A DNA stretch of 64,000 nucleotides from Nannochloropsis oceanica (Eukaryota; Sar; Eustigmatophyceae; Eustigmatales; Monodopsidaceae). Shown here in pieces: positions 14,023-52,309 of the stretch. The stretch is from assembly GCA_004519485.1 (NCBI GenBank), contig CP038108.1, positions 248,001-312,000 on the forward strand, in the 5' to 3' direction. How positions within the stretch are numbered: the stretch's first letter is position 1; every line of letters begins with the position of its first letter. A model generated the notes under the pieces. It saw only the letters and a program-made list of their open reading frames with translations, had not been told where the DNA came from and did no database searches. Both the position numbers and the translations under genes were made by a program.

Positions 14023-14076
<54 letters not shown>

Positions 14077-15177
14077 CTACAACTTCAACAAGAGAGGCAG
14101 TGCGTACCTGGCATACGGCTTAACATGGGTTGGGAGTCAGAAGAGGCTCGTTTGCATGCCTTGGCGCTACTAGGGGGCACCGTGGTGAGTAGCACAAACA
14201 AGGAGGAGGAGGGGAAGGAAGAAGGAGAGGGGGAGGAAGAAAGCGAGGAAAGGATGGAGGAAGGGGAGGAGGAGAGTGGACCTGTAGATATGTTTTCGGG
14301 GTCGCCGATGGGAAAGGACCTATCAGCGCAGCAGCAGCAGCAGCAGCAACAACAACAACACAACATTTTCCAGCACCCTGGCAACTTTCCCTTGCGCAGT
14401 TCCGATGGTGACAGGGAATGGGATGTAAGTAGCAGCAGCAGCATCAGCAGCAGCCGACCCATCGGTATCCCTTATGTTGGTCAGGCGCACCTGAAGCAGG
14501 AGCAGCAGCCCTTCACCACGTCCTCTTCCTCCGCTTCTTACGTTCCTGGCTTTGGAGGAGCAGGAGGAGGAGGAGGAGGAAGAGGGGGAGGATTCACCGG
14601 GCCATCGTCATTGGACTCGATGGTTGCTCAGCCGGACGAGGATGTGACGTACCGAGGAGGAGGAGGGGGAGGAGGAGGAGGAGGAGGGGGAGCGGGGGGA
14701 AGGAGTAAGCTGGGTGGTGAGAACTTTGCGGCGTTGGCGCGAGGCTTTGCTGGAAGCTGGGGAGGAGGGGGAGGAGGAGGAGGAGGACGAGGGGTAGAAG
14801 GATATATGGATTCGGAGAGGGGAGGCGAAGCGGAGCAGGAAGAGGGGAATGAGGAGGATATGGATGATTTGGTGGCTTTGACCAGGGCTATCGCCGATGC
14901 GGGAGGAGGAGGAATAGGAAGAGGACGAGGCAGAAGAGGGGAAGGGGAAGGGATAGGGGGACAAGGGACCCGTGAGGCGTTGCTTGCTCCTCCTCCTGGA
15001 TGTGTAGGGCCGAGTTTGACTGGGGAGAAGGAAGAGGAGGAGGATGAGAGGGAAGGGGAGGGGAGAAGAGGAGGGGAGGGGTTTCTATTCGAAGGGGGGG
15101 GAGGAGGGAGGGGGGAAACTCCGGCACACCATTTGTTGGATGAGGCGTTGGAGGATGACGAGGCTCTTTGGTCGTAA
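12949..15177 (+). CDS. HROB: HROB-like OB-fold protein (homologous-recombination / MCM8-9 cofactor family)
   Basis: 742 aa from ATG 12949 (accCATGG context); single exon. Two pieces match the HROB/C17orf53 family. One is a short N-terminal motif RRFPGPLGLLG (about residues 26-36). The other is an OB-fold domain (about 134-245): LAGVVTAVDHTADGSVSITL, ADPTGKVHGYLHTDV, then VLSGVAIFVSG and WLNVVPENVRGFYP. In animals HROB loads the MCM8-MCM9 helicase during recombination repair; that role here is inferred from the domain only. Everything after about residue 245 is low complexity: Gly/Glu-rich blocks, a ~17-residue poly-Gln at 14023-14073 and Gly9-10 runs, ending in an acidic tail (LDEALEDDEALWS). 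The family call rests on two motifs, so it is good but not certain. Confidence 0.68.
14023..14073 (+). repeat. CAG repeat (poly-Gln) inside HROB-like gene
   Basis: Uninterrupted (CAG)n of about 17 units coding poly-Gln. A second CAG/CAA run lies at about 14330-14360 in the same gene. Confidence 0.9.
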
Positions 15178-25200: not shown

Positions 25201-28200
25201 ACTGCTTCCTCGCCCGCTGGGTATCCGAAAGCGCAGAAGTGGAAACCTCCACCCCGTCCTCGTCCTCGTCCTCGTCCTCCTCCTCCTTCCTTGCCCTGGA
25301 CGGGAACGGTCACCTCTCTCCCTCCTGCTGGCACAAACAGGTGCAACGCGGGAAGAATCGACGCCACCCTTCCTACTGGACGTTTCTCGCCTCGCAATGG
25401 GAGATCCCTCCCCGTGTCGCTCTCCAACAAGAGCCCGACCTCTACCACGTCCTCTCCACCGAGGCCGTCGTGCACCTCAACCACGCCCTTGCCCTCTCCC
25501 GGCCCCTCCTTCAATCCTTCCACCAGCTCCTCTTCCGACTGCTGGCGCTATTGGGGCAGGGACAGGCAGCATGGCGCGCGCGGGTCATGAAGGCCTTTGG
25601 GGGCATTTTGGAGAGCGACCCGCTGTTGATGTTGGACGCACAGGTGAAGCAGGCGGTGGTTGATCGCTTCCAGGTACGTGGTATGAGTAGGTGCCCTCTC
25701 TCTCTCCCTCCTTCTCTCCCTCCTTTCCTTCTTTTGCTTGTGGCCTGCATAAAAGCGACGATAGACCGGGAGGTTTTCTCTTTGGTTCATGAAAACGTCC
25801 CCTCCCTCCTTCTGTCCCTTATTCCTCTCCTCCCTCCCTCCTCAGGATGAGGCCACCTCCGTCCGTCAAGCCACCGTGGAGTTGGTGGGGAAGTACGTCC
25901 TCCAACAGCCTTCCCTCCTCGACGCCTACTACCACCCCTTGCGCGAGCGTCTGGTGGACAAAGGCGTGTCTGTCCGAAAAACAGTTGTGAAGTTCCTGGG
26001 AGAGTTTCTGCAGCGCTGTCCTACCCACCCGCTGAGGACGGAGATTTGCAGGTGTTTGGTCGAGAGGGCGAGTGTAGTGAAGGAAGAGGATACGGTCAAG
26101 GACTTGATTCAAGATTCGTTCCAAGTGATGTGGTTCTCGGTGAAGGGGTGGGCGGACGGGAAGGAGCAGGAGGAGGAGGAGGGAGGGGAGGAGGTGATGG
26201 TGGAGAATGGGGAGGAGGGAGAGAGCAAAGGAGGAGCGGGGGCGTGGAGGAAGAAGAAGTTGTCCGATTCAGAGAGGCTGGCAGCGGTGGGGCTTCAGAT
26301 GGTGGAGGTGATCGCTGGGTTGAATAATACGGACTGGTTGGTAGCTGTCATGACCGGACTTTTGTTTGGGCCGGGGGAGGGAGAGCAGGGGAAGAAGGAC
26401 AGAGTGAAGCAACGCAAGATTGTCGCGGCCCGATGCGGCCTGCTGGTGGAGTCCCTGGTAAACGTGTTGTTGGATTTAGACGAGGGGGGCCACCCGCCTT
26501 TAAATACAGCCCTGCCCGATCTTGCTACGCCGGCAAAACAGCTCCTGGGTGTGATCACCACTCTGCACGTCTTCTCTCGTGCCGATCCCCGCTTTCTCGT
26601 GCCGCACGTGGACACCCTCCTTCCCTATCTCAAGGGTGAGAACCACCTGGATGCACCCGAAGAAGCCGCACTGTGCTGCAAGATCTCCCAGATGGTGGGT
26701 CTTGTCCTCCCTCACCTTACCCATCCGGATCAAGGGACATATGCGCAGGTCTCGCGGGATCTGGTTCAAATCACGTACCGATTTGGGGCAGCGGCCATTC
26801 ACGCGGCCATTCAATGTCTGGCGAACGTATGCACGTTTATTTTGGGGGGCAATCCGGGGCCTGTGCTCGGGTTGGCGAACACCTTTTACCGCGTGCTGGG
26901 GAAGTTTCGAGAGAGACCGACGTTTGCTGTGGGGGAGGCGGATTTCACGACGAGGAGTAGCACGCATCGGGCGCTGGTGGTGTTGGGGTGTGTGTGTCGG
27001 TATTACCCTGGGTTTCAGCCTCCTGCAGGGGCGAGCGAGGGGGCATTGCCATTGTCGGTTTTGGATGCGCCTTTGGCGGAGGAGGTGAACGAAGGGAATG
27101 TGTATGTGATGAGCTACCGTCTCTTAACGCTGTACTTGACCAAAGACCTGGAGACGGAGACGAAAGCAGTGCAGGCCTTGTGCTGTCTTTTCACGGGGTG
27201 CATGCCACTGATGCTGACGGCGCAGAGGGATCACGTGGTTGGACGGATGTTGACGATCAGAGGAGGGGTGGCACGGAGGCCCGTGCGGTTGCAGGCGCTG
27301 AAGAGCCTGAGGGAGGTTTTGTTGGCGGAGGAGACGAGGGTAGAAAGTGGGGCCGCCAGATCGAGGATGGCCCAGGCGGGAGTGACATTGAAACAGCGGG
27401 TAAAAGGCGACCAGGACGCAGAGGCGAGTATTGTGGGAGGGGTGATTCAGGAGCACCTGGACGCCATTAAGCACCTCCTGTTCGACCGAGACGTGCATTT
27501 GCGTACAGCTGCCTTGGGACTCCTGGCGGTTCTTCATCGCCAGGGCCTGGTGAACCCGCTGCAGACCTTGCCGGCTCTGATTGCCTTGCAGGCAGATCCT
27601 TCCCCGGGTTTGCGGACACAGGCCTATAGGCAGGTGTTGGTGGAACATGAGAAGCACCCCGAGTTTTTACCCGCGCGGATCATGGAAGGGGTTAGTTTGA
27701 GCTTTACCTTTCAGAGGAAGGTCCTCGGGAAGGGCGGAGGGAGAGTGTCGGCGGTATTGCCCGGGGAGGGACGGAGGGAGGGAGGAGGCGGGTGGAGCGG
27801 AGGAGGGAGACAGTGTTTTTTGGGCACCGTGTACGCGACTTGTGTGAGGGGGAATCGGAAACATCGTTACTCGTTTCTCCGGAACCTCTTGGCCTTGTTT
27901 GAAGAGAAGACTGTCCGGGACGTGCACGCCAAAATGCACCGGCAACGTTTATCACAACTGCAGCATTTTTCAACTTCCTCTTCCTCTTCCTCTTCCGCCA
28001 CCGCCCGTCGTACATCTACCGGTGTCTCCATGACGACCGCTGACCCCAAGGGACAGAAAGGCTCCTTAGACCCGCTTTTCCTTGCCTACATTGCTCAGAT
28101 CTTGGCGTTTCTCCCCTTTGACGTGCAGGAGGAACCGCTGTTCTTGATTCATGCCATCAGCCGGACAGTCAGTTTGGAAGGTGCCACATTGGTAGAGGAG

Positions 28201-28947
28201 ATCAAGGGGTTATTGAGGAAGGTGGAGAGGGTGGGGGGGAGGACGGGGGCAGGGGAGGGAGGGGGAAGTAGTGAAGATGAGGATATGAATGAGGTGCAAA
28301 CAGGTGGAGGTGATGGCGCTGCGGCTGGTTTACCTCCGGCGTCGCGTTCGGTGTCGTTGGATTCGTTGAAGGATAAGGCGGGGACTGCCATGTCCCTTTG
28401 TTTGTTGCTCAACCTGAAGCACTGGCTGAAGGACGTCTATGGGTTCAGTGACGAACGCTGTCAGGATTTTCGGTCCGTAATGGGAGGGGTTGGCGGAGGA
28501 GCGAAAAATGAGAGGCCGTTGAGCAAGCCGGATTGCCTGCCAGACTTGCCCTTGCCCGCGTGGTTGTTGGCTGAGTACCCGAGGGAGGGTGGGGAAGAGG
28601 AGGTGTTGCGGGTCGTGAGGGAGCAGTACCGGGAGTTTGCGACGTTGATCAAGCAGGACCCGAGCGACTTTTTGTTGACCCAGACGGTGCGAGTGGTGGG
28701 AGGAGGAGGAGGAGGAGGAGGAAGGAGGGGATCTGGGGGACGGGGGAGAGGGGGGAGTAGTGGGGCTGGGACGGGAAGCCGCATGGCGGGAGGGTGGGGA
28801 GGAGGAGGAGGAGGAGGAGGAAAAAGAAAGGGAGGGAAGGGGAGGAGAGGCGGAAAGGGGAGAGGAGGAGGTTATGAGGGGGAGTCGGACAGTGCGGATG
28901 AAGGAGTGGCGGGTTCGGATTCTGATGACGAGGCAGGAATGGTGTAG
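22274..28947 (+). CDS. SCC2: Cohesin loader SCC2/NIPBL, 2 exons, one apparent frame slip in a poly-G run
   Basis: HEAT-repeat protein that loads cohesin on chromatin. Coding parts are 22274-25673 and 25846-28947 (GT-AG intron, Q|D join), about 2,166 aa. Family-typical segments: VAHYFAGAFLERCGRK followed by FRQVLVNFVDDLL and LPEWPAAEMLLQAF; then ATSVRQATVELVGKYVLQQ, GVSVRKTVVKFLGEFLQRCP and LIQDSFQVMWFS; later EFLPARIMEGVSLSFTFQRK with HRYSFLRNLLALFE. These follow NIPBL order. The frame must shift by one base within a run of 13 G (24089-24101); the flanking protein is conserved right up to it, so a miscounted homopolymer is likelier than an intron. Large Glu/Lys/Gly-rich insertions lie at about 23120-23340 and 23870-25080. 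The C-tail is Gly/Arg/Lys-rich then acidic. The start is uncertain. Confidence 0.85.
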
Positions 28948-31938: not shown

Positions 31939-33647
31939 ATGCAGCAACCAGGCGGTGGGCCAGGTGGTGGACCGGGGGGAGGCGGAGATTTCAACAATGG
32001 AGGAGGAGGACAGGGAGGCTTAGACCCCGCCATGTACCAGCAATTCATTGCGACCATGCAGCACAGTGTGAGTGACCAGCAGCAGCAGCAGTACCAGCAC
32101 GATCCTTATCAGCAGCAGCCGAGCAACGCCTACCCCTACCAACCACCGCAGCATCTAAGGTATGAGAATCAAGGCCAACAAGCACAGTCGTTGGACTATA
32201 GCCAATACAGCTACCTGCCACAGCAGCAGCAACCGGACTTGCAGCAGCACCAGCAGCAGCACCAGCAGCACCAGCAGGGGACGTATGACGACCAACAAGC
32301 TTTTCTCCTTCACTTGCAGCTCCAGGAGCAGATGCTGGCTGCAGGCACTGGCTATTCCCAGTCTTCCCAACAACAAAAACAGCACCACCTTGGGCAGTCG
32401 CAGCAGCTACAGCGGCAGCAGCAGTATTACGACTACGAGCAGCGGCAGGAAAACCAGATGCAGCACCAGCAGCATCAGCAGCAGCATCAGCAGCAGCAGG
32501 GGCACAGCCGCCAACAGCACCCGCAGCATGAGCCCTACGCGACAACGATGAGATTTGCCAACGGGAGTGGAGGAGGAGGTGTAAGCGATATGGCCGCGGC
32601 CTCTTCCTCCTACTACACCTACGACCAACATCAGCAACCACCCCTCCAGCAACAGCAGCAGTTACAGCAACTTCAGCAGCAGCAGCAGCAGCAGCAGCAG
32701 TCGCAGAAGAATTACTCATGTTCGTCTGGTCTGGGTGGTATTAATGGCATGTACGAGGCGTCGACGGTGGCAGGGTCAGTCGGCGGAGGCTCCTCTTACG
32801 AAGCAATGGCGCCAGGTGGGGGGGTTGGTGCCGGTGTAGATGCTGGCGTTGCCTCACAAATGTCGGCGCGTCGGGTCTTGGGAAGCTTTTTGATGGAGGA
32901 TGGGGTGGGTGGAAGAGGAGGGATGGGAGGAATGATGGGTACTGTCGGTACTAACATGGACGGTGGTGGTGGTGGATTGCCTGTGACGATAGGCGGTGCG
33001 GTCATGGATCCTATGGCTGCTGCTGCGAGCGCTGCGGGCTGTGGCGCTGGAGCTGTAACCGGTACAGCGGTTGAAGATAACACTCGGTACTGCTCTTGTC
33101 AGCGCACCGAGGACGAGTATGAGGGAGGCATAATGATTGAGTGCGCGCTCGGGAAGGGCGGCTGTAATGGTTGGTTTCATCCGGAGTGTGAGGGGCTGGC
33201 CCTGACGGAGGAAGAAGCGGCGACGGGCTCTTTTCTATGCAGTTTGTGCAACCAAGGGAAAGGGGGGGGAAGGGGCGGAGGCCGGGGACAAGGACGAGGG
33301 CGTGGTCGCCCTAAGGGGAGTGGAAAGAAAAAGCGTGGAGGGTTGCAGGGCAGAGGAGGTTTTGGTGATGACGAGGAGGAGGAGGGGGAGGAGGCAGTAA
33401 AAGTAACGTCAAGGGGGAGGGTGGTGAAAAAGATCAAGACGTTGGATTTGGACGACGATTCAATTTTTGAGGATGACGAGGATGATCGGAGCGATGATGG
33501 GAGGAGGAAGGGAGGGGCGGCAGGGTATACTGGGTCTGTCATGGGCCCGCCCCCCCCACGCGGTGTAGTACAGAGCCTGATGGTGGACAAAATCCTGGCC
33601 TGGCAGCCTTATGATCCGAGCGAAGATGGTCATCATGATAATCAGCC

Positions 33648-33684
<37 letters not shown>

Positions 33685-36600
33685 GAGGTGGGGAAACCAC
33701 CAGCAGTGAAAGAGGATTTTTGGTTGGTCAAATGGAAGGGGAAAAGCTATTTGCACACATCATGGGAGACCCGGGCAGGCTTATTGCTGCATGATTCGTC
33801 GACGGACCAAAAGTTGAGACGGTTTGAAAACCAGATGATAAAGCTGCGGGGCCCGGCGTGGAGGGAGGTGTTGTTGGAGGAACGGAGGGAAGACCCGAAA
33901 GAGGTGCCGGAGTGGTTCGACCCAGATTTGGTTGAGGCGCATCGGGTGATTGCCTGCGAGACAGCCTATGTGATGATGACGGTAATTGTCCGTCAGATTC
34001 GTCGGATGCGACATACCCTCCTGCTGGATGAGCAGGCGGCCGACGCGGGGGAGCAGGGGGGGGCGCCGCAGGCGTTGCCTGTGCCATTGCCCCCGCCGAC
34101 GCCGGCGGAGGAGGCAGAGGACAGACAACATGATGAGGTGAGATACCTTGTGAAGTGGCGGGGGTTACCCTACGCAGAAGTATCGTGGGAGAGGTGGGCG
34201 GATATCAAGGAGTGGGCGTACGAGGAGGTGGCCTTGTTCTGGTTGCTTCAACGGCCCGATTTGAAATTGAGTCCGGCGATGGCCTCGACGATGCGGGTGC
34301 TCCATGATGTAGATAACCCGACTTTTGGACATCGGAGCTATACCTTTCTATCTGTCTATGACCCTGACGGACCCTCCGACATTGAGATTCCCCCTCCTGC
34401 CGTCGCGGCCCCTGCTCACATCCCCCCCCCGCCTACCCTGGAGGAGGGAGGGACGGAGGAACAACAGCAGCAGTATCAGAAGGATATGCATGCCCAGGCT
34501 GTGGCGCACGCGGCAGCGTCGTCGAACGTGTTGCAATTGCGAGATTATCAGCTGACGGGCTTAAAGTGGTTAATTTTTAACTACTACCAGCGCCGTCCCT
34601 CGATTTTGGCGGATGAGATGGTGAGTGCGGCAGGGGGGGTCGGAGGTAGAGAGGGAGGGAAAGTAGGGTGTAAAAGGAATTGTCGTTCAATGCCTCGATA
34701 AGTTATTTCTATTCTACTTTTCTACTTCTCAACTTATAATGAGCATCGACCGATAAACAACTTACAACCCCCATCCCTCCTTCCATCTCTCCCTCTCCCC
34801 CCCCAGGGCCTTGGCAAGACCATCCAAACCATGGCCTTCCTCACCCAGCTCTACCGCACGCAAGAAGGGCAAAATCGAGGCCCCTTCATCATCGTTGCCC
34901 CCCTCTCTCTCATCAATCAGTGGCAAGGCGAAGCTTCCACCTGGGCGCCTGATTTGAATGTATTGGTCTACCACGGCAACGCTGACTCAAGACAAGTCCT
35001 GCGGGAGTACGAGTTCTATTTTGACGAGCCGTATATTCGACCAGAGGACGCATACTACCTCAAGCAGAACAACATCGTCAAGTTTGACATTTTATTGACC
35101 ACATATGAGACGGTCATAAAGGACATTAAGATTTTGTCGCGTGTCGCGTGGAAGGTGCTGGTGGTGGATGAGGCGCACCGATTGAAGAATCCGGCCTCGC
35201 GGCTGTTTATGGAGCTGAAGACCTTGCCGAGGGATCATTGTGTGTTGTTGACGGGCACGCCACTGCAAAACAAGACGGAAGAGCTGTGGGCATTGCTGAA
35301 TTTTGCAGACCCGATTTACTTTGGTGACCAGTCGGGATTCAATAAGGAGTATGGGGACCTGAAGGATGCGAGCCAGGTGGAGAGTCTGCATAACATGTTG
35401 AAGCCGTTCTTGTTGCGGAGGATCAAGGAGGATGTAGAGAAGAGCTTGCCTCCCAAGGAGGAGACAATCGTGGAAGTGAGCTTGACTCCTTTGCAGAGAA
35501 AGTTTTACATGGCGATTTACGATCGGAATACGACCTTTTTGTTCAAGGAGACCAAGGCCTCCATGGCCCCCTCCCTGATGAATGTCATGATGGAACTGAG
35601 GAAGTGCTGCAACCATGCTTATTTGAATCGGGGCGTGGAAGAACGGATATTGTCGGAGATTCCCGAGGCGCAACGTACGCCAGAGAATCTGCACCACCAG
35701 CTTGTGTCGTGCTCGGGGAAGATGGTGTTGCTCGATAAGTTGTTGCCGCGGTTGAAGAAGGAGGGACACAAAGTGCTTATTTTCTCGCAGATGGTTCGAG
35801 TTTTAGATTTAGTGGAAGACTATATGCGTTTTGTAGGGCATTCCTACGAGCGGTTGGACGGAACCAAAAAGGCAACGGAGCGATCGGCGGCGGTAGTGCG
35901 CTTTAACAACCCGGCTCTGAATCGGTTTGTCATGCTCTTATCGACGCGCGCGGGGGGGCTGGGTTTGAATTTGACAGCGGCGGATACGGTGATAATTTAC
36001 GACTCGGATTGGAACCCGCATAATGATCTACAGGCCCAGGCACGAGCACACCGGATCGGACAGACCAAAGCCGTGAAAGTCTATCGGCTGCTGACGAGGA
36101 AGAGTTATGAAGTGGAGATGTTTCATGCTGCTTCGATGAAACTCGGATTGGACCGAGCTGTGCTGGCTCATCAGCGGGCGGAGGGTGAGATGGAGGCAGG
36201 AGCAGCATCAGCGGCTGCGGGGGTGGGGATATCAAAGTCGGAGTCGTCGTTGCTAAAGCCAACCAAGGCGCAGTTGGGCCTGTCACACACAGAGGTGGAG
36301 CATTTGTTGAAGAGGGGAGCCTACGATGTTTTCAGGGGCGATGATAAGGAAGGGCAGGAGTTTCAGGAGGCGGATATAGACCAGATTTTGCAGAGACAGA
36401 GCCACAAAGTCGTGTATGGGAACCAGGAGAGCTTGACGAAAAACTTGGCGTCTAGTTTCTCTAAGGCGTCATTTGTATCGACTGATAATAAAGAGGACAT
36501 TGATTTGGACGACCCAGAATTCTGGAAGAAGGCGATTGGGCTGACTGAGCCAGAGAAAGAGGCATCCACAAAGTTGCTTGGCGGCTTGGCGACCACGGCG

Positions 36601-39600
36601 ATTTTGGGGGAGGGGGAAAAGAGAAAGCGGAAGAGGAATGAGCGGTTTGACGCCAAGGCGATGGCTGGGTTGGATGACGTGTTGGGGGGGTACGACTCAG
36701 CGTATGAGGGGGATTCGCTTGATGACTCGGGCGGGGAAGACGGGTCACACTCTGGCTCCTCGGACGCTCACCCTAAGAGGAGAGGGCGACCGCGCAAGGG
36801 CGAGGCGGGCAAGCACCCGAGGGTGCGAAGCAGGGCAGGATCTAAGGGAGGACAGGGTACGCCCGTGGGGAATGGACGCTTCACCGTAGGCCCGGATGGG
36901 CAGGTGATCCCAGGGGGAGGGGGAGGGATGTCCTCAACGGGAAATCCTCAGGTGCGGCGGGTACCTAAGTGGGGGCCGCATTCGAGAGACAGATTGATAA
37001 GGGCGTTGTTAGAGTTTGGCTTTGGGCGGTGGGAAAGGATTAGAATCGAAAGCTTGGCGTCGGAGGTGCCTTTGGGGGAGGTGGAGAGCTTCTGTCGGTC
37101 GTATGTATTGCAGTGCGGACTATGCGCAGGGGAAGGCAAGCGACCTCGGCACGAGTCCAAGTTTGTCAAGGACGCGATTGCGGCCGCGACCAAACTGGCG
37201 GCGCAGATGAAGAGCGGGGAGATAGTCATTCCAGAGGTCTTGCAAGACGAGCGGTTCCTTCTCCGTCTCCGCCAGGGGCTAGCCCGCAAGGCGCTTGTCC
37301 GCCTCGATCTTCTCCTACGATTACAAAGCCCGGTGATAAACGAAGCTGTACGCCTGGCCTTTGTGGCTCTGACCCCAGAACAACTCATTGCGAAGGGCCT
37401 CCCTCCTATCCTTAACCAAGTTCCAGACCACCTTGTGTCTATTTTGCCTAATTTTGAAGAGCGCTTTTCAAAGCTGAGTAAAGCGGAGGTGGCAAAACAC
37501 ATTGTTTTGGGCGATGTCCGGCCCACGTGGACGCAGGCGACGCCTTGGTGGGATTTGGAGTGCGACAGACACTTGTTAGTGGGGGTGTACGCACATGGTT
37601 TTCAGAATTATAATGCGATCCGAGATGATCCTGACTTATGTTTTCAAAAGAAGATGGAAGCATGGTTGGTGAGGAACCCGAAAGGTTTCATGGTCGAGAA
37701 GAAGCCAGCACCTTTGCCTTTCAATGGAAAGGAGCAGCAGATGCTGCCTATCTATACGTGGTCGCCGTTGCAGGTGTTTTTGAAGCTGCCCTGCGTTGGA
37801 GTAGAGATTAAGGAGGAAGGGAAGGTCGACAAAAAGGGGGAGGAGAAGGGTGGAGGAGGTGAGGTAGAAGGAGGTATTGAGGAGGAGAAGCAGCAGTCAC
37901 ATTACATTCGGGCGGTGACCTTGCCAGGAAAAAGGGTGTCGAAGTACAGAGGGGTATACGCGCAGCCGGGAAGTGCGCATTGGGCGGTGCAGATTCAACA
38001 GATGCAGGGAACGCAGTGTGTTGGGTCTTATGCCTCAGAAGAGAAGGCGGCCTTGGCGTATGACACAGCTGCTCGGAAATTGTACGGACCGGAGGCAGAG
38101 ACGAATTTCACAAGGGCGGTGTCTGCGATCGGCGTGGCGGCGGCTGCAGATACTGCTGCTGTGGCCGCTGCTGCTACTGGTGCTGATGCTGGTGCTGGTG
38201 ATGCTGGCGCTTTTTCTCCTTCTCCGTCTGCCCTTGCTGTAGGAAGTGGCACTTGCAGCGAGGCGGAGCTGTCCCCCAGCGCGAGACTCGACGTTGCAGC
38301 CGAAGGTGAGGGGGGAAGGGAGAGCGGAGGGGCAAAAGCTTCCTCCGCGATGGTAGCCAGTGGCAGCAACAACAGCATCAGCAGCTTGGCGATTGTCAAA
38401 TCGAGCGGAAGCGAGCCTCCTCGTCGCCGACCTGAGGTGACCAAAGCGCCCAACCACGAGCTACCTTTGGTGTGGCATCGCTCATCACTCTACCGGGGCG
38501 TACGTGCTGCGGGCCCCAAGTGGACGGCGCAGATAAGCTACAACGGCCAGAACCATCACTTGGGGACGTTTAATAGTGAGTTGGAAGCCGCCTTGGCTTA
38601 TGATGCGCTTTCTCGTCGATACCATCAGGGGCAGACGGCGGTGTTGAATTTCCCGGAGGGTCCCGAGCAGGAGTTGGATCGGATCGATGCGCTGATGCAG
38701 GAGCTGACGGAGTCAGGTTTGCCGGGGGGCTGGTCTGAAGGAGGGGCGGAGGAAGCGGCGGCGATGGCGGCGACGAAGATTGCTCGCGAGGAAGCGCGGG
38801 TGTCGGTGAAAAAGGAGAAAGAGGTGGTGGTGATTGATGATGATGAAGTGGGAGAGGAGAAGAAGAAGGAGGCCAGGGAGTTGGAGGTAAAAGAGGAAGA
38901 AAAGAAGGTCAAGGCGGAAGAGGGGGTGCCTGATAGGGTGGTATTGAAGGTGGATGTTGAGGAAGCAGCGCTTCTGCAGGAGCAACACGAGCAGGTTTCT
39001 GCGCCGACGCCCAATCCCGATGCTATCGATGACGACAAGCATGCGGCCACTCCTGCTGCTGCTACTGCTTTTACTGAAGAAGTGGCTGGCGAGGGGACCA
39101 AGGCAGAAGCAGTAACCCCTCAGACCGCGCCCAGAGATGAAGTGAAAAAAGGGAGCGAAGTGAAAGAGGCCGCGGCGTCAGCAGAATCAACAGCAGCAGC
39201 AGAAGCAGCAGGAACAGGAGCAGAGCAGCCGAATATATCGTCTGCTGACACAGCGTCTGCAACGGCGGAGATGACCGTCTGGAAGGAAGGGGGAGGGGAG
39301 GAAGAGCAGAGGAAGGAGAACGTCGAGGCGGCAAGTTTTAAGGCAACTGCTGCGGCTGCTGCTGCTGCTGCTACTGCTGCTGCTGAGAAAGGGGGAGCTA
39401 TGGTCGGAACTAGTGGCACGGCAATGCAGGTGGGTGAGGAAGGGGAGATGAGTAGGAATGTGAGCCTGGCGGAGAAAGGAGAGAAGAAGGAGGGCGAAGG
39501 CAGTGATGAAAACGCAGGAGAGATTGTAAAGAAGGATGGAGATGGGAAGATGGTGACAACAGACGAGCCTCTGATCAAGAAGCACTGGCCGGACAACTAC

Positions 39601-41154
39601 AAGATGCTGAACAAGCTAGTCACCTGGCTCATAGATGATCCGGACGCCCGCGAAACCCAAGCGGACGTCAAGAAACGCCTAGAGGAGGAAGGTCTCCGCG
39701 TGACTGAAGGAAAGGTGGTGCGTCAAATCAAGCGTCGACCCTCCGAAGAGGATGAGCGTGGCATGTCAACGAGTGGCCGGGGCTCAGGAGGCGAGAAGGG
39801 CAGCCCTTCCTCTTTCGACCCCGAAAACAAGAAAATCAAGACAAGCATCAGTGGTGTTAGTGCCCGCGGGGTCGGTGTCTGGAGCACAGATGATTGTCGG
39901 CGCCTATGCAACGCCTTGTTGGTTAGCGGAGCGCCTCTCTCGAACCCTGCCCTTCCTGTTACCCTCTATCTGGCCACAGCCGGGCGGCTATCACATTCGG
40001 CGTTGGTGGATCGACGTACGCCCTCGGCGGATGGGAGCGTTGATCAAGTGATTGGTTACCTCCCCACTTTTACCTGGAACGATGTCCGTCTCCGTGCCGG
40101 CCTTCCCGCTAAGACCCCTGAGGACCTGCAGGCTTTTTATGTCACGGAACTCCTGCCATTGTTCCAACGTTTGTGCACGCACCGGGAGCCTTTGCCGGAA
40201 TCGGGTGATGGGTTGAGTGCGCTTCCTGATCCAAGTAAGTCTGTGCTAGAGCACACGGCGGGCTCGCGCTCGATCGCTTATACGTTTATGAGGCGCCAGC
40301 AGCTGGTACGTGCCATTAGATTTATTTTGGAGAAGGAGCCGAAGATGTTGGTCGAATATTTGGGGTCGACAGAGGGGAAGAATGCGACGGGGAATCTGCC
40401 AGGGTGGTGGATGGGGACGAGGCTTGATGTGTCCTTGATGCTGGGAGCCTGCTGGAAGGGCTTGTTGTGCATAGACCAGATTCGAAAGGAGACGATGTTG
40501 GGGTTGTGTGACGCGGCAATTGAGGGGCATTTGAGGAAGACCGTGATTGAGAAAGTGGCGGCCTCAGAGATGACCATGCCCTCGGACGCAGAATTCAACG
40601 AATACGCCCAGCGGGCGATGGCGGCATTCCCGGATCGGAAAGTGCTGGAGGAGCGCTTGCATCGTAACTGTATCATCATAGCTCGACATGTACCGGCGAC
40701 AGCGGAATTGAGGTTTGGGGGGGCGCGTGGCAACAAGTCACCGGGGACGCCTGGTCAGGGCAGCAGGGGATCGACGCCGGTGCCAGCAGTGGACGTAGAG
40801 AAAGGAGGGGCTAATTCAGAAGGACAAGGAGGACGGGGAGGTGTCACACCGGGTGCTCAAGCTGCTGCGGTTGTGGCTACTGCGGCAGCGGCTGCTGATG
40901 CTGAAATTAGTCCTGCTGCTGCTGTCAGTACCAACCCGGCTCTGTTGGTGGAGCCAAAGTCTTCTTTGGTGCAGGTGCCCACTTCTTCCTCGCCAGAACC
41001 TCCGGTGCCGGTCGTGCAGGGACAGCAGGAACATCAGGGGCAACAGGAGGGTGAATCAGTATCTCCGATAGCGTGGGAGCAGGGCCAGATGACAGCTGAC
41101 GACGGCAGTCAACCACCACAGCAAGAAGGAGATGGTGGAGGGCGGATGGAATAG
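31939..41154 (+). CDS. CHD-type chromatin remodeller with PHD finger, double chromodomain and two AP2/ERF domains
   Basis: ATP-dependent nucleosome remodeller. Exons 31939-34620 and 34807-41154 (join DEM|GLGKT) give about 3,009 aa. Order: Gln-rich N-terminus (1-260); PHD finger (about 384-437, YCSCQRTEDEYEGG ... WFHPEC ... CSLC); AT-hook-like Gly/Arg/Lys patch; chromodomain 1 (about 593-680, FWLVKWKGKSYLHTSWE); chromodomain 2 (about 733-775, YLVKWRGLPYAEVSWERW); SNF2 ATPase (about 865-1330: GLGKT at 895, DEAH at about 1013, helicase C with STRAGGLGLNL and AHRIGQ); SANT-like (about 1613, RDRLIRALLEFGFGRWERI); SLIDE-like (about 1806, PWWDLECDRHLLVGVYAHG), as in CHD6-9. Then AP2 domain 1 (about 1938-1995, YRGVYAQPGSAHWAVQI), AP2 domain 2 (about 2122-2180, YRGVRAAGPKWTAQISYNG) and a second, divergent SANT/SLIDE-like pair (about 2586 and 2762). 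AATAAA follows at 41227. The AP2 fusion is not part of any CHD class I know. Confidence 0.9.
32070..32710 (+). repeat. CAG/CAA-rich poly-Gln region in CHD-AP2 exon 1
   Basis: Broken CAG arrays coding a Gln/His-rich N-terminus. Another pure CAG run follows at about 33648-33680, between the PHD finger and chromodomain 1. Confidence 0.85.
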
Positions 41155-42185
41155 CTAGCGAGAATGTGCGTGGACAGCCTAAGTTGGGAGATTAGAATCA
41201 AACAAGTCAAAAGAGAATGTGCAGTGAATAAAAACTTTTGTGTAGTTGTAAGAGAAAACCTGAACTCAAACCATTTGACTCGGTAGAGAGAGAAAGTTAC
41301 GAATTTTTAGGTAAAAAAAACCAGTCATATTGTTTGGACTGGTGGAGGGCTTGTTGTTTCATTTACATCGATTGATAGATTGATTGATTTATTTCTGAGA
41401 GCGAGATATTGATCCCTATAAGGCCCCTTGATAATTATTTAATGGGTCATTTGTTTATTTACATTGAATTACGTCGCATCTAACATAGACCTGTCAATCG
41501 GTCGTCTTTCCTTGCCGAATGCATATCAATGAAGTCCACGAATAAGTTATTTAACGACCAACAGTCCTTCATGAATTTGTGAATGTAAATGAATTGGACA
41601 TGGAAACGATGTAGCAAGAGATGATAAAAAGACGACATCTGTCACAAAAGCTTGTGGCGAGGGGCTTCGTTTATGCAAACAAAGGCGTGGCAAGTGTGTG
41701 ATAATTTGAAGTGTGGTTTGCATTATGGGCCTACGGGTGGTAGGGAGGAACGATGGGCTACTTTGCGTGGCTCCAAAAAATCTGCGGCCACACGTACAAG
41801 ACCACAGACACACGAAGGACGATGTCGGAGCCTTTTTCGCTCTAGAAAATACCCGTGGGGCTCGGTAGGGCTTGGTACAGGTGCATATGGGTGTGCATCA
41901 TATGCCTTTTGCTTTTTTACAGGGTTTGCTCTGCTTCTCAAACCCCTCAAAAAGCATCGAACACATGGACAACTCCTCAAAAAGCAAACCCCTATCCACT
42001 ACGACGGCCTGGGCTTTACTCGTCGCGTTCATGATGATGTACAGAACAGCTTCTGCTGATACTGCTGTTGGGCCGGCAGCGAGAGCTCCGACCCTGGCTT
42101 CGCCTAGTGTCTCCCCCAGCCCTCCCCAGGGGCTGGACTTCTATTCTAATCCCATACCACACAATACTGCATACACCGGCAGAAG
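41155..42185. other. AT-rich intergenic region
   Basis: 1,031 bases between tandem genes. AATAAA at 41227-41232 probably ends the CHD-AP2 transcript. The part around 41330-41600 is much AT-richer than the surrounding coding DNA, with GATTGATT-like short repeats near 41370. The promoter of the next gene must lie in its right half. No gene is seen. Confidence 0.45.
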
Positions 42186-43496
42186 ATGCTGTCGTCCTGC
42201 ACGTGGACAAGTGAATTGTTTAAACCAGCTACTACCACCTCTACGCCTTCGTACCTCAAGGGCCGCGCGCGCAAGAATCGCGTGAGCCGGTCGGGCCGTC
42301 GGGACAAGCCACAATACGAGGCTGCATTGACGCGTCTACTAGCCGTCACAGAACCCACGTACGCCACAACGTTGCCAATCTCCCGCTTTCCTATACCCTC
42401 CTTATCGTCCAAATGCCCTTCCCATGCCTCCGTCACGACCCAAGTCGAAGACACGGCCGAGTGGCTGGCATCGGTCAAGGGCATCGATCCCGCTGAAGGA
42501 CACCTGTGCAATCCCCAGCGAGCGCAACGAAAACGGCAGCAAGTGGCAAATTTGATGCAGGTATGCCACGCATATATCGGGCAGCTACTTGCCCTTCAAA
42601 GCACCTCTGCAACGCCAGCTCAGCTCAGAGTGATTGAATTCTGCTGCGGGAGTGGCCATGTGGCGTTACCTCTGGCAGCACTCTATCCCTCCGTGCATTT
42701 CATTCTTCTCGACAACCGCCCCCCCTCCATCCGTCAAGCAGAGGAGCGATCTGCTGCGGCCAACTTCCACAATGTAACATGCCGGTGCGAAGATTTGCAC
42801 GACTTTCCAGATTCTGAAACGTTTCACCTCGGCATAGCTCTTCATGCATGCGGTCCTCTGACAGACTTGGTGATGGATTTTTGCCTGAAGCAACGGGCGG
42901 CCTACGTTCTTTGCCCCTGCTGCATTGGCAAGATTCAAGCCAGTCCTCTAGAATTTCCTCGATCCTCTTGTTTCCGGGCGCTTTTACCTGATCGGCGGCA
43001 ATATGAGTCGATGGCATCTGCTGGGGATCTGAGCGTGCGACAGTTCTTTTCCAAATCGAAAGTGGCTGAAACTGACGGGCAAAAGGCCACCAGCATTGGA
43101 AATAACGATATCAAGCCGGAGAACCCGCGACAGGAGCGGGATAAGCAAGAGCAGGAAGAGGAACAGCAGCAGCAGCATCGGCGGCGGCGGCTTTGTAAAG
43201 CTTTTGTAGAGACGGACCGGGGATTGCGGGCGAAGGAGGCTGGCTATTTGACGCGATTGATGCTGCTGACACCCCGAGAATGTACTCCAAAAAATGACCT
43301 GCTTTGTGGTTATCCCGGTGAATGGGAAGAAATGATTTTGAAGAGGGAAACTGAAAAAGGAAGAGAGGTGGTGGAGGAAATGGAGTACGTGGTGGTCAAT
43401 GGCAACGACGCCGCAGTCTTCGATGCTTTTTTTGGGGATTCAGGAGCAGGTGGAGAGGGAGAGGATGATGCGTCTGATGATGATGAAGTAGGTTGA
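42186..43496 (+). CDS. GSTCD: GSTCD-like SAM-dependent methyltransferase
   Basis: 436 aa, single exon. The class I methyltransferase domain (about residues 100-280) resembles the C-terminal methyltransferase part of animal GSTCD: VIEFCCGSGHVALPLAALYP (SAM motif I), FILLDNRPPS (motif II), LGIALHACGPLTDLVMDFCL, then AAYVLCPCCIGKIQ. The HACG...TD and CPCC strings are diagnostic of this group. The GST-like N-terminal domain of the animal protein is absent, replaced by a basic ~60-residue stretch. A second conserved patch follows a Gln/Arg-rich insert: ETDRGLRAKEAGYLTRLMLL. The C-tail is acidic. The substrate is unknown; RNA is a reasonable guess for the family but not shown by the sequence. The start ATG 42186 is the first in frame. 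Confidence 0.78.
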   Translation: MLSSCTWTSELFKPATTTSTPSYLKGRARKNRVSRSGRRDKPQYEAALTRLLAVTEPTYATTLPISRFPIPSLSSKCPSHASVTTQVEDTAEWLASVKGIDPAEGHLCNPQRAQRKRQQVANLMQVCHAYIGQLLALQSTSATPAQLRVIEFCCGSGHVALPLAALYPSVHFILLDNRPPSIRQAEERSAAANFHNVTCRCEDLHDFPDSETFHLGIALHACGPLTDLVMDFCLKQRAAYVLCPCCIGKIQASPLEFPRSSCFRALLPDRRQYESMASAGDLSVRQFFSKSKVAETDGQKATSIGNNDIKPENPRQERDKQEQEEEQQQQHRRRRLCKAFVETDRGLRAKEAGYLTRLMLLTPRECTPKNDLLCGYPGEWEEMILKRETEKGREVVEEMEYVVVNGNDAAVFDAFFGDSGAGGEGEDDASDDDEVG

Positions 43497-47361: not shown

Positions 47362-48237
47362 GGTTTAGATACCGTAGACGGGTTGCGCCTTGATAATGAT
47401 ACGTCCCTCCGATGTCGTCCAGCGCGTCCTATGAAGGCAGAGTGAAGCCGCCTGCCTCCTTCAAAGATGCTAATCTCTTGCTATCTATGTCCCTCGCCCG
47501 TCCGCCTCCTCTCCTTTCAGACCAAAATTAACGCCTCCCTGGGCGTGGCGTGGCCGCCGCCGCAAGTGCGGGTATGGAAGACCTGGGCTCGCAGATAGTT
47601 GTGTCTTGTATAAACCTCTTCTAGATTTAAATTGCAGTGGTGATCTGCGGTGTCTTACACGTACGGCCGCGTCCTTCACAACTTACTCGAAATGATAGAT
47701 GATGCTGTTCCAAGTCCTCCCGCGCCCTGAATGTGTGGCGCCGATCGCGGTCCTTGGCAACAAAACAGGCCGTCCAGCGTCGAGACAGATGACCAACTGC
47801 TCACCTGTATGGTGAACATGAGTGTGGGTGGGTAAAAGGGTGGGCGTGGGCAGTGAGAAGCCCGAAAAAGGATCGGCTGCAATTGCTGCATGTCCCGGAA
47901 TAAAATAACTTGGGAGGGGAGAGGCCGCGGCGGACGGAGAGATGCGCCTTTGCCGGTCTCCTCCGTGCCACGCAAAGCTTTCCTCAGTGGTAGCAAATTG
48001 GCAAAAAGTGAGTGCCGGCAAGGCTTGTACAGAGTTGAGGCTTCAATGAGCCACAGGGGGCTCTCGTCGGTCACATGTTTTGCTAGGAAATTTGGTTTGG
48101 GGCTCGCTCATTCACCCCGCCGGTGGATACGAGGCAGTCCATGCGCGACTCGCTTGCTCTGCTTGCTCATTGCCCATCCGCTGAGCTAATGCATGACCCT
48201 TACTTAATGTACTCACACACGCAGGCGTGCGTCAGCC
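47362..48237. promoter_or_regulatory. Divergent region, ARF-like / UbiE-like
   Basis: 876 bases between outward-reading genes. Small open frames on the minus strand are not supported as genes. The plus-strand start is preceded by an acceptor-like gcgtcag, so an upstream non-coding exon of the UbiE-like gene is possible. Confidence 0.35.
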
Positions 48238-51200
48238 ATGGTCATGACCCGGAGTAGGGCCTCCCCGAATGGCAGCCCGACCACGCCTCAAGCCAGCGCG
48301 AGACGTCGTCGACGTCCTGAGGACAGCACGGGGAGCGAGGGTGCCTCCGCCTCCTTAAAGACTTCCAACAAGAGCAGCAAGGGCAGGGAGACGACAAGAA
48401 AAACCGCTACAAAACAGAACTTAAGCCAAAGCTTACCATCAGACCCGTGGGGATGGCAGCGTCTGGATTTCATGCGTGTCCTAATTGCGCTCATGACCTT
48501 GGCGGTTGCGGCTTTGGTGGCGTACGGGGTTAATCAGCAGGTTACGGAGCGCGTCGAGGACGAGGGGGGAAAGGCGCCGCTGGGGTCCGGGAAAATGTTT
48601 GATACAATTGCCCGGCATTACGATCGCATGAACAAATTCATGAGTTTGGGGATGGACCAGAGCTGGCGCATCTTTTTGATCGAGGGGTTGGGCTTGCGCG
48701 AGGGAGACCGAGTGCTGGACTTGGCGACTGGCACGGCGGACGTGGCCATCTTGGCGGCCGAGGCCTTTGCAGCGCGAAACTGGACGGAAGGGCGAGTGTT
48801 GGGCATTGACCCATCCGCGGGGATGCTCGAGATTGGCGTGGAGAAAGTGGCGACAAAGGGCTTGGCTTCGATCGTGACTCTGACGCTGGGCGACGCACAG
48901 GTGCTGGAGAAGGTCCCCTCTGATTCCATCGACAAAATTAGTATGTCGTTTGGCATTCGAAATGTTGTAGATCGCCCAGCAGCCTTGCGGGAAATGGCGC
49001 GGGTCCTCAAGAAAGACATGGGATCCACGGTGGGGATTTTGGAATTTCAATTGCCCTCTTCTGGACCCTTGCGATGGGTGGCTGAATTTATGGTGCGGTA
49101 TGGAGCTCCTTTCTTGGGGGCACTGCTGACGGGAATGAGTGATGAATACATTCATTTGAGGAGGAGCATATTGGAATTTCCGACCCAGAAGGATTTTGTA
49201 GCACTGATGGCGGAGGGGGGGTTAGATGTGTTCGATGTACGGGAGACGGGCTTTGGGGCCGTGACGCTGTTTTTGGCCCGGCCTGCACAAACAGCAGTCG
49301 ACGCCTCTGCTGCCTCTGCTGCCTCTACTGCCTCTGCTACCTCTGCTACCTCTGCTACCTCTGCTGCTGTTGCTGCCAGTGCAGCAACGCAGGAGAAGGA
49401 GGTTGCTGCCTTTGAACAAGCAGAGAATGCAGCTGCTCAAGCAGAAGAGGAGCGAGTTGCAATTGATGAGGCTGCCGCTGCAGCAGCAGAGATCAAGGCA
49501 GAGGAGGAAAAAGCCATGCGAATTGCGACCGGGAGGGCCCCAAAAATGGAGGAAGAGAAGACGCGTCAAGCGGCAGGAGCGGCAGCAGCTGCGCAAAAAG
49601 CAAAGGAAGAGAAGGAAGAAGCCGTCCGTGTTGACAAGGAAATAGAAGAAGAGGGAGTGCGAGAACGCGCAAGTGCGGAGGGTGATATCAGGCGTTTGCA
49701 GCAAGAGGAGGAGCAGGAAAGGGAGAAGAGAGCAGTAGCTGAGAGAGAAGCAGCTCTAGAGGCGGCTCGTCAAGAGAGGAAAGCAGAGCATGAACAGAAG
49801 CGCGAATCAGCAGAAGCAGCAGAGGCGGCGGCTATGATGCTAGCGCAGGCACAACAGGCTGAAGAAAAGTTGAAAGCAGAACAAAAAGCATCAGCAGAAG
49901 CAGCAGCAGCAGAAGCGGCGGAAGCACCAGCAGCGGAAGCAGCAGCAGCAGATGCAGCAGCAGCTGCAGCGGAAGCAGCAGAAGCAGCAGAAGCAGAAGC
50001 AACAGCAGCAGCAAAAGCAGCGGCAGGAGAAGCGGAAGCAGTAGCAGCAGAAGCAGCAGCAGAAGCAGCAACAGAAGCTGCAGCGGCAGAAGCAGAAGCA
50101 GCAGCAGCAGCAGCAGCGGAAGCAGCAGCAGCGGAAGCACCTGCAGCAGAAGCAAGAGTAGCTGCAGCAGCAGCAGCGGCAGCAGAAGCAGCAGCAGTAG
50201 CAGTAGCAGAAGCAGAAGCAACAGCAGCGGCAGGAGAAGCGGCAGCAGAAGCAGTAGCAGCAGAAGCAGCAGCAGCAGCAGTAACAGAAGCTGCAGCGGC
50301 AGTAACAGAAGCAGCAGCAGCAGCAGCAGCGGACGCAGCAGCAGCAGAAGCAGCAACAGCAAAAACAAGAGTAGCGGAAGCAGAAGCAGAAGAAGCAGCA
50401 GCAGCTGAAGCAGCAGCAGCTGAAGCAGCAGCAGCTGAAGCAGAAGCAGAAGTAGAAGCAGCAGCAGCAGCAGAAGCAGCAGAAGTAGCAGAAGCGGAAG
50501 CAGCAGCGGAAGCAGCTGCAGCAGAAGCAGCTGCAGCAGAAGCAAGAGTAGCGGAAGTAGCGGCAGCAGAAGCAGCAGCAGAAGCAGCAGCAGAAGCAGC
50601 AGCAGCAGAAGCAGAAGCAGAAGCAGAAGCAGAAGCAGAAGCAGCAGCAGCAGCAGCAGTAGCAGAAGCGGAAGCAGCTGCAGCGGAAGCAGCTGCAGCA
50701 GAAGCAGCTGTAGCAGAAGCAAGAGTAGAAGCAGCGGCAGCAGAAGCAGCAGCAGCTGAAGCAGCGGCAGCAGAAGCAGCAGCAGCTGAAGCAGCAGCAG
50801 CAGAGGCAGCAGCAGAAGCAGCAGCAGAAGCAGCAGCAGAAGCAGCAGCAGAAGCAGCAGCAGCAGAAGCAGAAGCAGCAGCAGAAGCAGCAGCAGCAGA
50901 AGCAGAAGCAGCAGCAGCAGAAGCAGAAGCAGAAGAAGCAGTAGCAGCAGAAGCAGCAGAAGTAGCAGAAGCGGAAGCAGCTGCAGCAGAAGCAGCAGCA
51001 AGAGAGGCAGCAGCACGTGAGGCCATGGGGATCGAAGCTACACGCCAGCTGCAGGAGATAGAATTAGAAGAGAAAGCTTCTGCTGAAGCAAAAACACAGG
51101 CTGAGGATGAAGCAACAGGAGCAGAAGCAGCAACCGCAGCAGCTCAAATTAAAGCGGACACCATGCAATTGCGGCGACAATTGCAGGAAGAGGAGTTGGC

Positions 51201-51648
51201 CGCAGCAGAGAAGAAGACACGTGCAGCAGCGCGTGTGCAAAGACTTGAGCAGGAAAGGGAGCGTCGGCAACCACATGAGGAGGCTGCTATTCCTGCTAGT
51301 GCTGCTGTGGTTGCAGCTTCTAGTGCGGCTGCGGCTGGTGCTGCCGCTGGTGCTGCGGCTATGGCTGCGGCCGCTGCGGCTGCTGCTGCTGCCGCTGCCA
51401 CTGACGCACGTGGTGCTGCTGCTGGTGCTGCTGGTGGTATGGATGAGCTCGTAGTCGTTCCTGACGGTTCTTCCGCTGCTGTTGCTGCTGCTGCGGATGC
51501 GAGCTCTGCAGCGGCTGTGGCAGCTGCCAACGCTGCTGCAGCTGCTGGGGAGGCACTTGCTGCGCTCTCGGCAGCAAGGAAACGAGGGGTGATTAAGAAA
51601 GAGAAAGTGGCACCACCACCACCACCCTTGACCAGAGATATGTTTTAA
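48238..51648 (+). CDS. UbiE/COQ5-family methyltransferase with giant Ala/Glu-rich C-terminal tail
   Basis: 1,136 aa, single exon. Residues 1-75 are Arg/Lys/Ser-rich; about 78-97 form one membrane helix (VLIALMTLAVAALVAYGV). Residues about 112-350 are a full UbiE/COQ5/MenG methyltransferase: MFDTIARHYDRMNKFMSLGM, VLDLATGTADVAILAAEAF, GIDPSAGMLEIG, SFGIRNVVDRPAALREMARV and SDEYIHLRRSILEFP. The family C-methylates quinone precursors (ubiquinone, or plastid phylloquinone/menaquinone); which one cannot be told here. From about 355 to the stop the protein is almost only Ala and Glu with some Lys and Gln, coded by GCA/GAA arrays (core 49880-51015), ending in a basic Pro-rich tail. No family member I know has such a tail. 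Long frames on the opposite strand of the repeat are shadows of it. Confidence 0.88.
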   Translation: MVMTRSRASPNGSPTTPQASARRRRRPEDSTGSEGASASLKTSNKSSKGRETTRKTATKQNLSQSLPSDPWGWQRLDFMRVLIALMTLAVAALVAYGVNQQVTERVEDEGGKAPLGSGKMFDTIARHYDRMNKFMSLGMDQSWRIFLIEGLGLREGDRVLDLATGTADVAILAAEAFAARNWTEGRVLGIDPSAGMLEIGVEKVATKGLASIVTLTLGDAQVLEKVPSDSIDKISMSFGIRNVVDRPAALREMARVLKKDMGSTVGILEFQLPSSGPLRWVAEFMVRYGAPFLGALLTGMSDEYIHLRRSILEFPTQKDFVALMAEGGLDVFDVRETGFGAVTLFLARPAQTAVDASAASAASTASATSATSATSAAVAASAATQEKEVAAFEQAENAAAQAEEERVAIDEAAAAAAEIKAEEEKAMRIATGRAPKMEEEKTRQAAGAAAAAQKAKEEKEEAVRVDKEIEEEGVRERASAEGDIRRLQQEEEQEREKRAVAEREAALEAARQERKAEHEQKRESAEAAEAAAMMLAQAQQAEEKLKAEQKASAEAAAAEAAEAPAAEAAAADAAAAAAEAAEAAEAEATAAAKAAAGEAEAVAAEAAAEAATEAAAAEAEAAAAAAAEAAAAEAPAAEARVAAAAAAAAEAAAVAVAEAEATAAAGEAAAEAVAAEAAAAAVTEAAAAVTEAAAAAAADAAAAEAATAKTRVAEAEAEEAAAAEAAAAEAAAAEAEAEVEAAAAAEAAEVAEAEAAAEAAAAEAAAAEARVAEVAAAEAAAEAAAEAAAAEAEAEAEAEAEAAAAAAVAEAEAAAAEAAAAEAAVAEARVEAAAAEAAAAEAAAAEAAAAEAAAAEAAAEAAAEAAAEAAAEAAAAEAEAAAEAAAAEAEAAAAEAEAEEAVAAEAAEVAEAEAAAAEAAAREAAAREAMGIEATRQLQEIELEEKASAEAKTQAEDEATGAEAATAAAQIKADTMQLRRQLQEEELAAAEKKTRAAARVQRLEQERERRQPHEEAAIPASAAVVAASSAAAAGAAAGAAAMAAAAAAAAAAAATDARGAAAGAAGGMDELVVVPDGSSAAVAAAADASSAAAVAAANAAAAAGEALAALSAARKRGVIKKEKVAPPPPPLTRDMF
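49880..51015 (+). repeat. GCA/GAA-type coding minisatellite (Ala-Ala-Glu)n
   Basis: More than 1.1 kb of irregular GCAGCAGAA, GCAGCTGAA and GCGGAAGCA units with larger repeated blocks, all in one frame and coding Ala/Glu. No stop arises in any of three frames read (one plus, two minus) over nearly the whole array. Confidence 0.92.
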
Positions 51649-52309
51649 GCGTGAGGGGCTAGGGAGGAAGGAAGGGAAGAAGATGGCAAAGGTGTCGAGA
51701 GAGGTGAGAGTAAAGATTTGTACACATGAGTTGTGTGTGTGTGAGAGAGAGAGAGAGATAGAGGATGTGGGTATGGCGTGGCTCAGGGGGTATGAGGAGG
51801 GCGAGAGGGAGGCGGAGAAAGGTAAAAACACTGATGCTGCTCTTGCTGTTGCTGTTACTGACAATAAAAGCAGGAAGGATATCTGAAAGCGAATGTGATA
51901 GGTGATTGGACAAGCAGAGATGCAATCAATAGCAGGACGAGACAGAGAGAAGAGCTCACTCTCGGCAATGTACTGGAAGCAAGAACTCAATAGAAATAAG
52001 GCTTTATTCACCTTAGGTAAGAAAGCCCCAGACACCAAACCATAGAAGATGAGCGAGTCAGCCCATCAGTAATTAAATGGAAGAACCACGGCATCAGCGA
52101 TAGAGAGGCGAATTGATGGAAACACCAAAAGAACAAAGAGGATCAAAAATAAAACGGAAGTGAGGATCAACCCTGGACGAGCGAACCCGCTTTTGCCACC
52201 CTTACTTTTGTTTTTTTAAAGTTTCTCCTCCCCCTGATTTTTAGAACAAGCGCACAGTTGTCTGTAATACTCACAAGTCTTTGCGAAATGCGACTTACAG
52301 ATTAATCTC
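51649..52309. other. Convergent intergenic region, UbiE-like / RBM18-like
   Basis: 661 bases between 3' ends. A short GAGAGA tract lies near 51742-51760 and AATAAA at 51864. No gene is recognised. Confidence 0.45.

Follow-up and report, generated by a model that had tools for sequence, protein, structure and literature searches.

How a chromatin remodeller finds the sites at which it acts is a standing question, and most remodellers are thought to be recruited there through histone marks or separate transcription factors. A gene of Nannochloropsis oceanica poses this question in a particular form: does one protein combine a CHD-family motor with a pair of AP2 domains, and what might such a pair do there? 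The gene lies at 31939–41154 on the forward strand of the analyzed DNA, a window of 64,000 nucleotides (C11:248001–312000) from a genome that totals 29,264,788 bases over 32 contigs and is available as a single assembly. It has a single reading frame, a clear order of domains, intact ATPase motifs, and two domains that are identifiable as AP2. Beyond these observations, we regard it as fairly probable that the product is a single CHD-family remodeller, nearest to the CHD6-9 group, with a PHD finger near the N terminus and an AP2 pair that is placed between SLIDE and a C-terminal module and acts as a DNA anchor. If this is true, a nucleosome remodeller could carry its own DNA-recognition module, and the AP2 family, whose members algal surveys list as transcription factors, would be shown entering the chromatin machinery. 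Such a natural chain of CHD motor and motif reader would also make the question of site finding directly testable.

Gene Structure and Domain Composition

Two exons join in frame to 9,030 bases, encoding 3,009 residues and one stop, in agreement with the coordinates and the continuous frame of about 3,009 residues reported in the first-pass annotation. The features of the gene, in window coordinates, are as follows (helix-turn-helix, HTH; expectation value, E).

31939–34620 (+): exon 1, with the Q-rich N terminus, PHD, two chromodomains, and the start of the ATPase; in frame from ATG 31939
33091–33249 (+): PHD finger, residues 385–437 (PF00628, 24.0 bits; cut-off 24)
33721–33831 (+): chromodomain 1, core (PF00385, 24.6 bits alone, slightly below the cut-off of 25.1)
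34129–34239 (+): chromodomain 2, core (PF00385, 32.1 bits alone; cut-off 25.1)
34621–34806 (+): intron, GT-AG, 186 bases, with a GTGAGT donor and an acceptor CAG preceded by 15/15 pyrimidines
34807–41154 (+): exon 2, with the remaining ATPase through to the stop codon; open frame of 2,115 residues and stop
34807–35622 (+): SNF2 ATPase lobe 1, exon-2 part (PF00176, 242 bits; GLGKT, DEAH)
35722–36063 (+): Helicase C lobe (PF00271, 85 bits; ARAHRIGQ)
36967–37050 (+): SANT-like HTH, weak (PF23588, 16.6 bits, E 0.18 alone; lies under a 46-bit two-stretch match)
37501–37659 (+): SLIDE-like HTH, WWDLECDRHLLVGVYAHG...DPDLCF (PF23588, 33.2–33.4 bits)
37939–38109 (+): AP2 domain 1 (PF00847, 27.2 bits, E 4.9e-6; WRI1 7wq5 1.2e-13, TEM1 1.6e-8)
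38485–38664 (+): AP2 domain 2 (PF00847, 22.0 bits, E 2.1e-4; WRI1 4e-9, TEM1 4.4e-7, AtERF1 5.8e-5)
39874–40524 (+): C-terminal CHD6-9-like helical module, tentative (11.8-bit collinear match to a non-database CHD8 stretch)

The ATG at 31939 is contained in a stop-to-stop frame that opens at 31930. Removal of the intron joins DEM to GLGKT, restoring the Walker A context DEMGLGKT, and the stop codon at 41152–41154 is followed about 73 bases downstream by an AATAAA, spotted by eye. The proposal that the ATPase and both AP2 domains share one large exon holds for both AP2 domains and most of the ATPase, but not for the start of SNF2: the exon-2 match begins at profile position 27, with the first ~26 profile positions falling in exon 1.

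A stop-free stretch of 2,115 residues bears directly on the alternative that two genes or transcripts are present here, namely a remodeller that stops behind SLIDE plus an independent AP2 protein, the two being joined only through a chance open frame or alternative starts. The GTGAGG donors at 37669 and 37859 would suit such a division. However, a scan of 36000–41154 for acceptors of one kind (YAG with 12 or more pyrimidines among the 15 preceding bases) returned two, at 37275 and 40996, with none between SLIDE and AP2 domain 2, and a CHD6-9-like module is found past the AP2 pair; a division into two genes is accordingly quite improbable. The presence of SLIDE before the pair and of this faint module after it also argues against a neighboring gene that has simply run on. 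Because the open frame is single, no acceptor of the scanned kind occurs from SLIDE to AP2 domain 2, and CHD-like sequence flanks the AP2 pair on both sides, the fusion is well supported at the sequence level and very probably represents one gene.

The N-terminal domains and the motor correspond to a CHD remodeller, in which tandem chromodomains precede the SNF2 ATPase and Helicase C. The PHD finger, tandem chromodomains, and SNF2 ATPase named in the first-pass annotation were all recovered by Pfam, the PHD exactly at its cut-off and with its Cys/His spacing pattern present (regular expression), while Chromo reaches 43 bits over two stretches of the exon-1 frame. The motifs of the ATPase are intact, with Walker A GLGKT at residue 895, DEAH at 1015, and motif VI ARAHRIGQ at 1306, as well as LTGTPLQN. 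Among the best 60 of 96 Protein Data Bank (PDB) chains matched by the exon-2 protein, CHD4 is the first (440 bits), followed by Chd1/CHD1 (425–415) and ISWI (373 and below). A glutamine-rich stretch is present in the N terminus of the remodeller (window 32221–32718). In the region directly before the AP2 pair, the Pfam model HTH_CHD1_Hrp3 gives 44 bits on the open frame and 46 bits in two stretches of 36898–37896.

Identity and Fold of the AP2 Pair

The first-pass annotation described two clear AP2 domains and named sub-threshold AP2 scores as the sign to the contrary. Such scores were found for each domain taken singly and for the exon-2 protein as a whole (29.8 bits; the cut-off of PF00847 is 33.3 bits), but the segment 37897–38694, which holds both domains, scores above it (43.5 bits, E 4.1e-11). 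The identity of the domains is also supported by the PDB phmmer searches that provided the WRI1, TEM1, and AtERF1 matches listed above, and by a profile built on five further AP2 domains that the genome encodes. With that profile the two domains reach 51–53 bits each among 1,114 pieces, whereas the best pieces beyond the clear matches score 10.1 and 7.9 (both from one frame at the AP2 locus of contig C15) and then 4.9 bits. An alcohol dehydrogenase, a growth-factor-like protein, and an antibody chain, also returned from the PDB, were set aside as chance matches (E 0.27–0.62). The predicted structure, of low overall confidence (49.6), contains two strand-strand-strand-helix units with elements at 20–63 and 202–243, and the chains nearest to these units are TEM1, WRI1, and AtERF1.

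The two domains are identical at 24/57 positions, and their identity to the five domains of that profile ranges from 16/47 to 24/55, so the pair is no recent copy. This also bears on whether an assembly error could have placed an AP2 segment in a CHD gene. With one assembly as the sole source such an error is conceivable, but the reading frame is preserved to either side of the segment and the G+C content stays at 0.54–0.58 across 32001–40000, despite dips at third codon positions (0.34 at 38107; 0.46–0.48 at 39007–39456). Together with the divergence of the domains, this leaves an assembly error highly improbable.

AP2 domains are rare in the genome: over its 29.26 Mb, the Pfam model has six matches with E <= 0.001, of which three exceed the cut-off, those of the window not being among these three. 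A search with AP2 domain 1 as the probe returned nine places with E of 1 or less, of which two belong to the present gene; AP2 places are found on contigs C1, C6, C10, C11, C15, and C22. Of the AP2 places found, the present gene alone has a listed SNF2 place less than 20 kb away, the SNF2 places being lower bounds, and the next nearest, on C10, is ~22 kb away. Two AP2-like matches ~770 bases apart at C10:814899–815998 perhaps indicate another two-AP2 gene. A 758-codon frame adjoining the C15 AP2 place (L046:1661–3934, reverse strand), with its faint score of 10.1 bits against the own-genome profile, perhaps contains a weak AP2 domain. The published NoAP2 is NO06G03670, according to PMC11477109. 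If the first digits of this identifier denote the chromosome, as we assume, it would fit the AP2-like place on C6.

Relationship to the CHD Subgroups

Comparison with CHD7 and CHD8 was made with sequences that did not come from a database. The CHD8 C-terminal sequence of this kind, which Pfam places in HTH_CHD6-9 (PF23078, 133 bits), is collinear with 39874–40524 over ~134 residues at 11.8 bits, where the highest score among 200 shuffles is 3.5, and all pieces that score more than 5.1 bits against it come from the present gene (1,114 open-frame pieces, 54 sequences). Should this match be genuine, the AP2 pair would be embedded in a CHD6-9-like protein and would not be a neighboring gene that has run on to its end. 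The SLIDE is matched by that of yeast Chd1 (3ted) at 17.9 bits (E 4.8e-4) and by a non-database CHD7 snippet at 44 bits; the E-values of these two matches are not comparable, because the CHD7 comparison used a far smaller target set. Pfam names the CHD7 snippet, too, HTH_CHD1_Hrp3 (25.6 bits, below the cut-off). The earlier description of the SANT/SLIDE segments as CHD6-9-like is thus favored by the SLIDE and C-terminal comparisons with these non-database sequences, but not by Pfam, which assigns CHD1/Hrp3 and gives no HTH_CHD6-9 match.

Judged from these comparisons, the remodeller likely belongs nearest to the CHD6-9 (Kismet) group. Membership in CHD3-5 was considered in view of the PHD finger and the CHD4 match, and is less favored because DUF1087 and CHDCT2 are not among the Pfam matches and the genome carries a clearer CHD3-type gene. 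Neither these two nor CHDII_SANT-like occurs among the Pfam matches of the gene, a miss that in a diverged protein is weak evidence, and no BRK domain is found there at E up to 1. In the C-terminal module, no Pfam model matches except Arg_repressor (E 0.06). The second CHD gene, of CHD3 type, is located at C1:1146250; it carries two PHD stretches, matches DUF1087 above the cut-off, and gives 549 bits with CHD4. A chromodomain at C15:169884, with same-strand SNF2 places ~2 kb away (C15:166644–170009, reverse), may mark a third.

Proposed Mode of Action

In this family, PHD fingers and chromodomains recognize histone tails, translocation of DNA is the task of the SNF2 motor, and linker DNA is bound by SANT/SLIDE. 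In the proposed arrangement, the PHD finger and chromodomains would read histone tails and the SNF2 ATPase would slide nucleosomes. The AP2 pair, adjoining the linker-DNA-binding SLIDE, would grip linker or flanking DNA next to the nucleosome, where it would most likely favor certain sequences to some degree, and by this grip would anchor the motor, so that sliding would be fixed at chosen sites. We can speculate, with rather less confidence, that the pair reads a motif and that the ATPase of the same chain shifts nucleosomes relative to it, with no separate recruiter needed.

The residues of the two domains bear on this proposal. AP2 domain 2 keeps YRGVR but differs from AtERF1 in the E of AEI, replaced by Q, and in the R and W of RVWLG, replaced by N and H; these AtERF1 positions we take to be contacts to DNA bases. 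AP2 domain 1 keeps YRGV, with the next Arg replaced by Y. Such substitutions in AP2 domain 2, together with the low Pfam score of each domain, would be expected if the fusion were real and the pair only a degenerate contact to the DNA backbone or to other proteins, with targeting by histone marks and partners as usual. Against this it can be said that the Arg of YRG is retained in both domains, that TEM1 also has Q at the position of E, although it keeps the R and W, and that the elements of the AP2 fold are predicted. We consider a non-reading pair of this kind rather unlikely, and sequence-specific targeting by the pair plausible. NgAP2a, a free two-AP2 factor of the same algal group, is reported in PMC11477109 to bind the TCTGCAAAGCYC motif.

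Several observations weigh against the reading of the gene as a CHD6-9-like remodeller anchored by its AP2 pair. The subgroup assignment leans on the non-database CHD7 and CHD8 sequences, and the CHD8 stretch scores higher on the SLIDE region than on the C-terminal module (14.1 versus 11.8 bits); those 14.1 bits are made up of three fragments, the best of which (9.9 bits) is the WW-D motif common to both modules. HTH_CHD6-9 (PF23078) finds no match in the gene or its genome, in a genome-wide run that matched no control either. The best PDB match, CHD4, stands outside the CHD6-9 group, no ATPase of which appears among the best 60 of 96 chains. The structure of the C-terminal part is predicted with a per-residue confidence (pLDDT) of only 37, and a possible in-frame intron, perhaps an optional one, lies in this module, from GTAAGT at 40235 to the acceptor at 40996 (762 bases, a multiple of three); its removal would leave the AP2 pair untouched. 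Codon scores separate coding from non-coding sequence poorly, the frame scoring below 0 in several 150-base blocks, some within conserved domains. The AP2 domains, for their part, fall singly under the Pfam cut-off and are changed at several AtERF1 positions. Finally, for the SANT-to-AP2, ATPase-to-AP2, and ATPase stretches, none of 1, 31, 9, and 23 pattern matches was confirmed as a relative in viral, bacterial, and archaeal collections (two protein scans each of viral_contigs and genome_contigs), in scans that cover close relatives only and are uninformative on stramenopiles.

Neighboring Genes

About 3 kb upstream of the remodeller, a cohesin loader SCC2-like gene is marked by a Nipped-B C-terminal domain (25765–28947, forward strand, 133 bits), and a methyltransferase of the Methyltransf_32/TRM13 kind lies just downstream (42150–43496, forward). 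Farther away, a match to the homologous-recombination OB-fold protein HROB (60 bits) is found at 12838–15177 (forward). A ubiE/COQ5 methyltransferase domain is located near the start of a 1,146-codon open frame (48208–51648, forward), to which no further type of Pfam model matches with E of 0.01 or less. The AT skew is 0.50 at 50001–52000.

Comparison with Known Systems

No description of an AP2-CHD fusion was found in the titles and abstract starts of the literature searched, although papers, supplements, or databases may already mention one. In published work, N. gaditana has two AP2-class and two ERF-class factors, and the domain combinations common to both stramenopiles surveyed are bHLH-PAS and bZIP-LOV, the word SNF2 being absent from the main text (PMC4827209); apicomplexan-type AP2 genes are absent from the stramenopiles scanned (PMC4501334); N. 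oceanica gains neutral lipid when an APETALA2-like factor is knocked out (PMC11117969); and reports on Plasmodium describe AP2 factors that meet chromatin regulators in trans (PMC11483127, PMC8396726). The CHD and AP2 parts of the present gene are ordinary, and their combination looks unusual.

With the CHD6-9 remodellers (Kismet/CHD7), the gene shares tandem chromodomains and the SNF2 ATPase, as well as, by the non-database CHD7/CHD8 sequences, the WWD..D..LL.GV..HG of SLIDE and the C-terminal FxW...L..KT and LPxWW. It differs from them in the PHD finger and AP2 pair, in the lack of an HTH_CHD6-9 or BRK match, and in a strongly diverged C-terminal module. CHD3-5 remodellers (Mi-2/PICKLE) resemble it in PHD, tandem chromodomains, and SNF2, with CHD4 as the best PDB match; however, the C1:1146250 gene has the two PHD stretches, DUF1087, and 549-bit CHD4 match noted above, whereas the present gene has no DUF1087 or CHDCT2 match. 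The AP2/ERF factors WRI1, TEM1, and AtERF1, as well as NgAP2a, carry AP2 domains like those described here, two per protein in WRI1 and NgAP2a (the latter according to PMC11477109). NgAP2a is given there as a protein of ~27 kDa, whereas the AP2 domains of the present gene sit within an ATPase of 3,009 residues.
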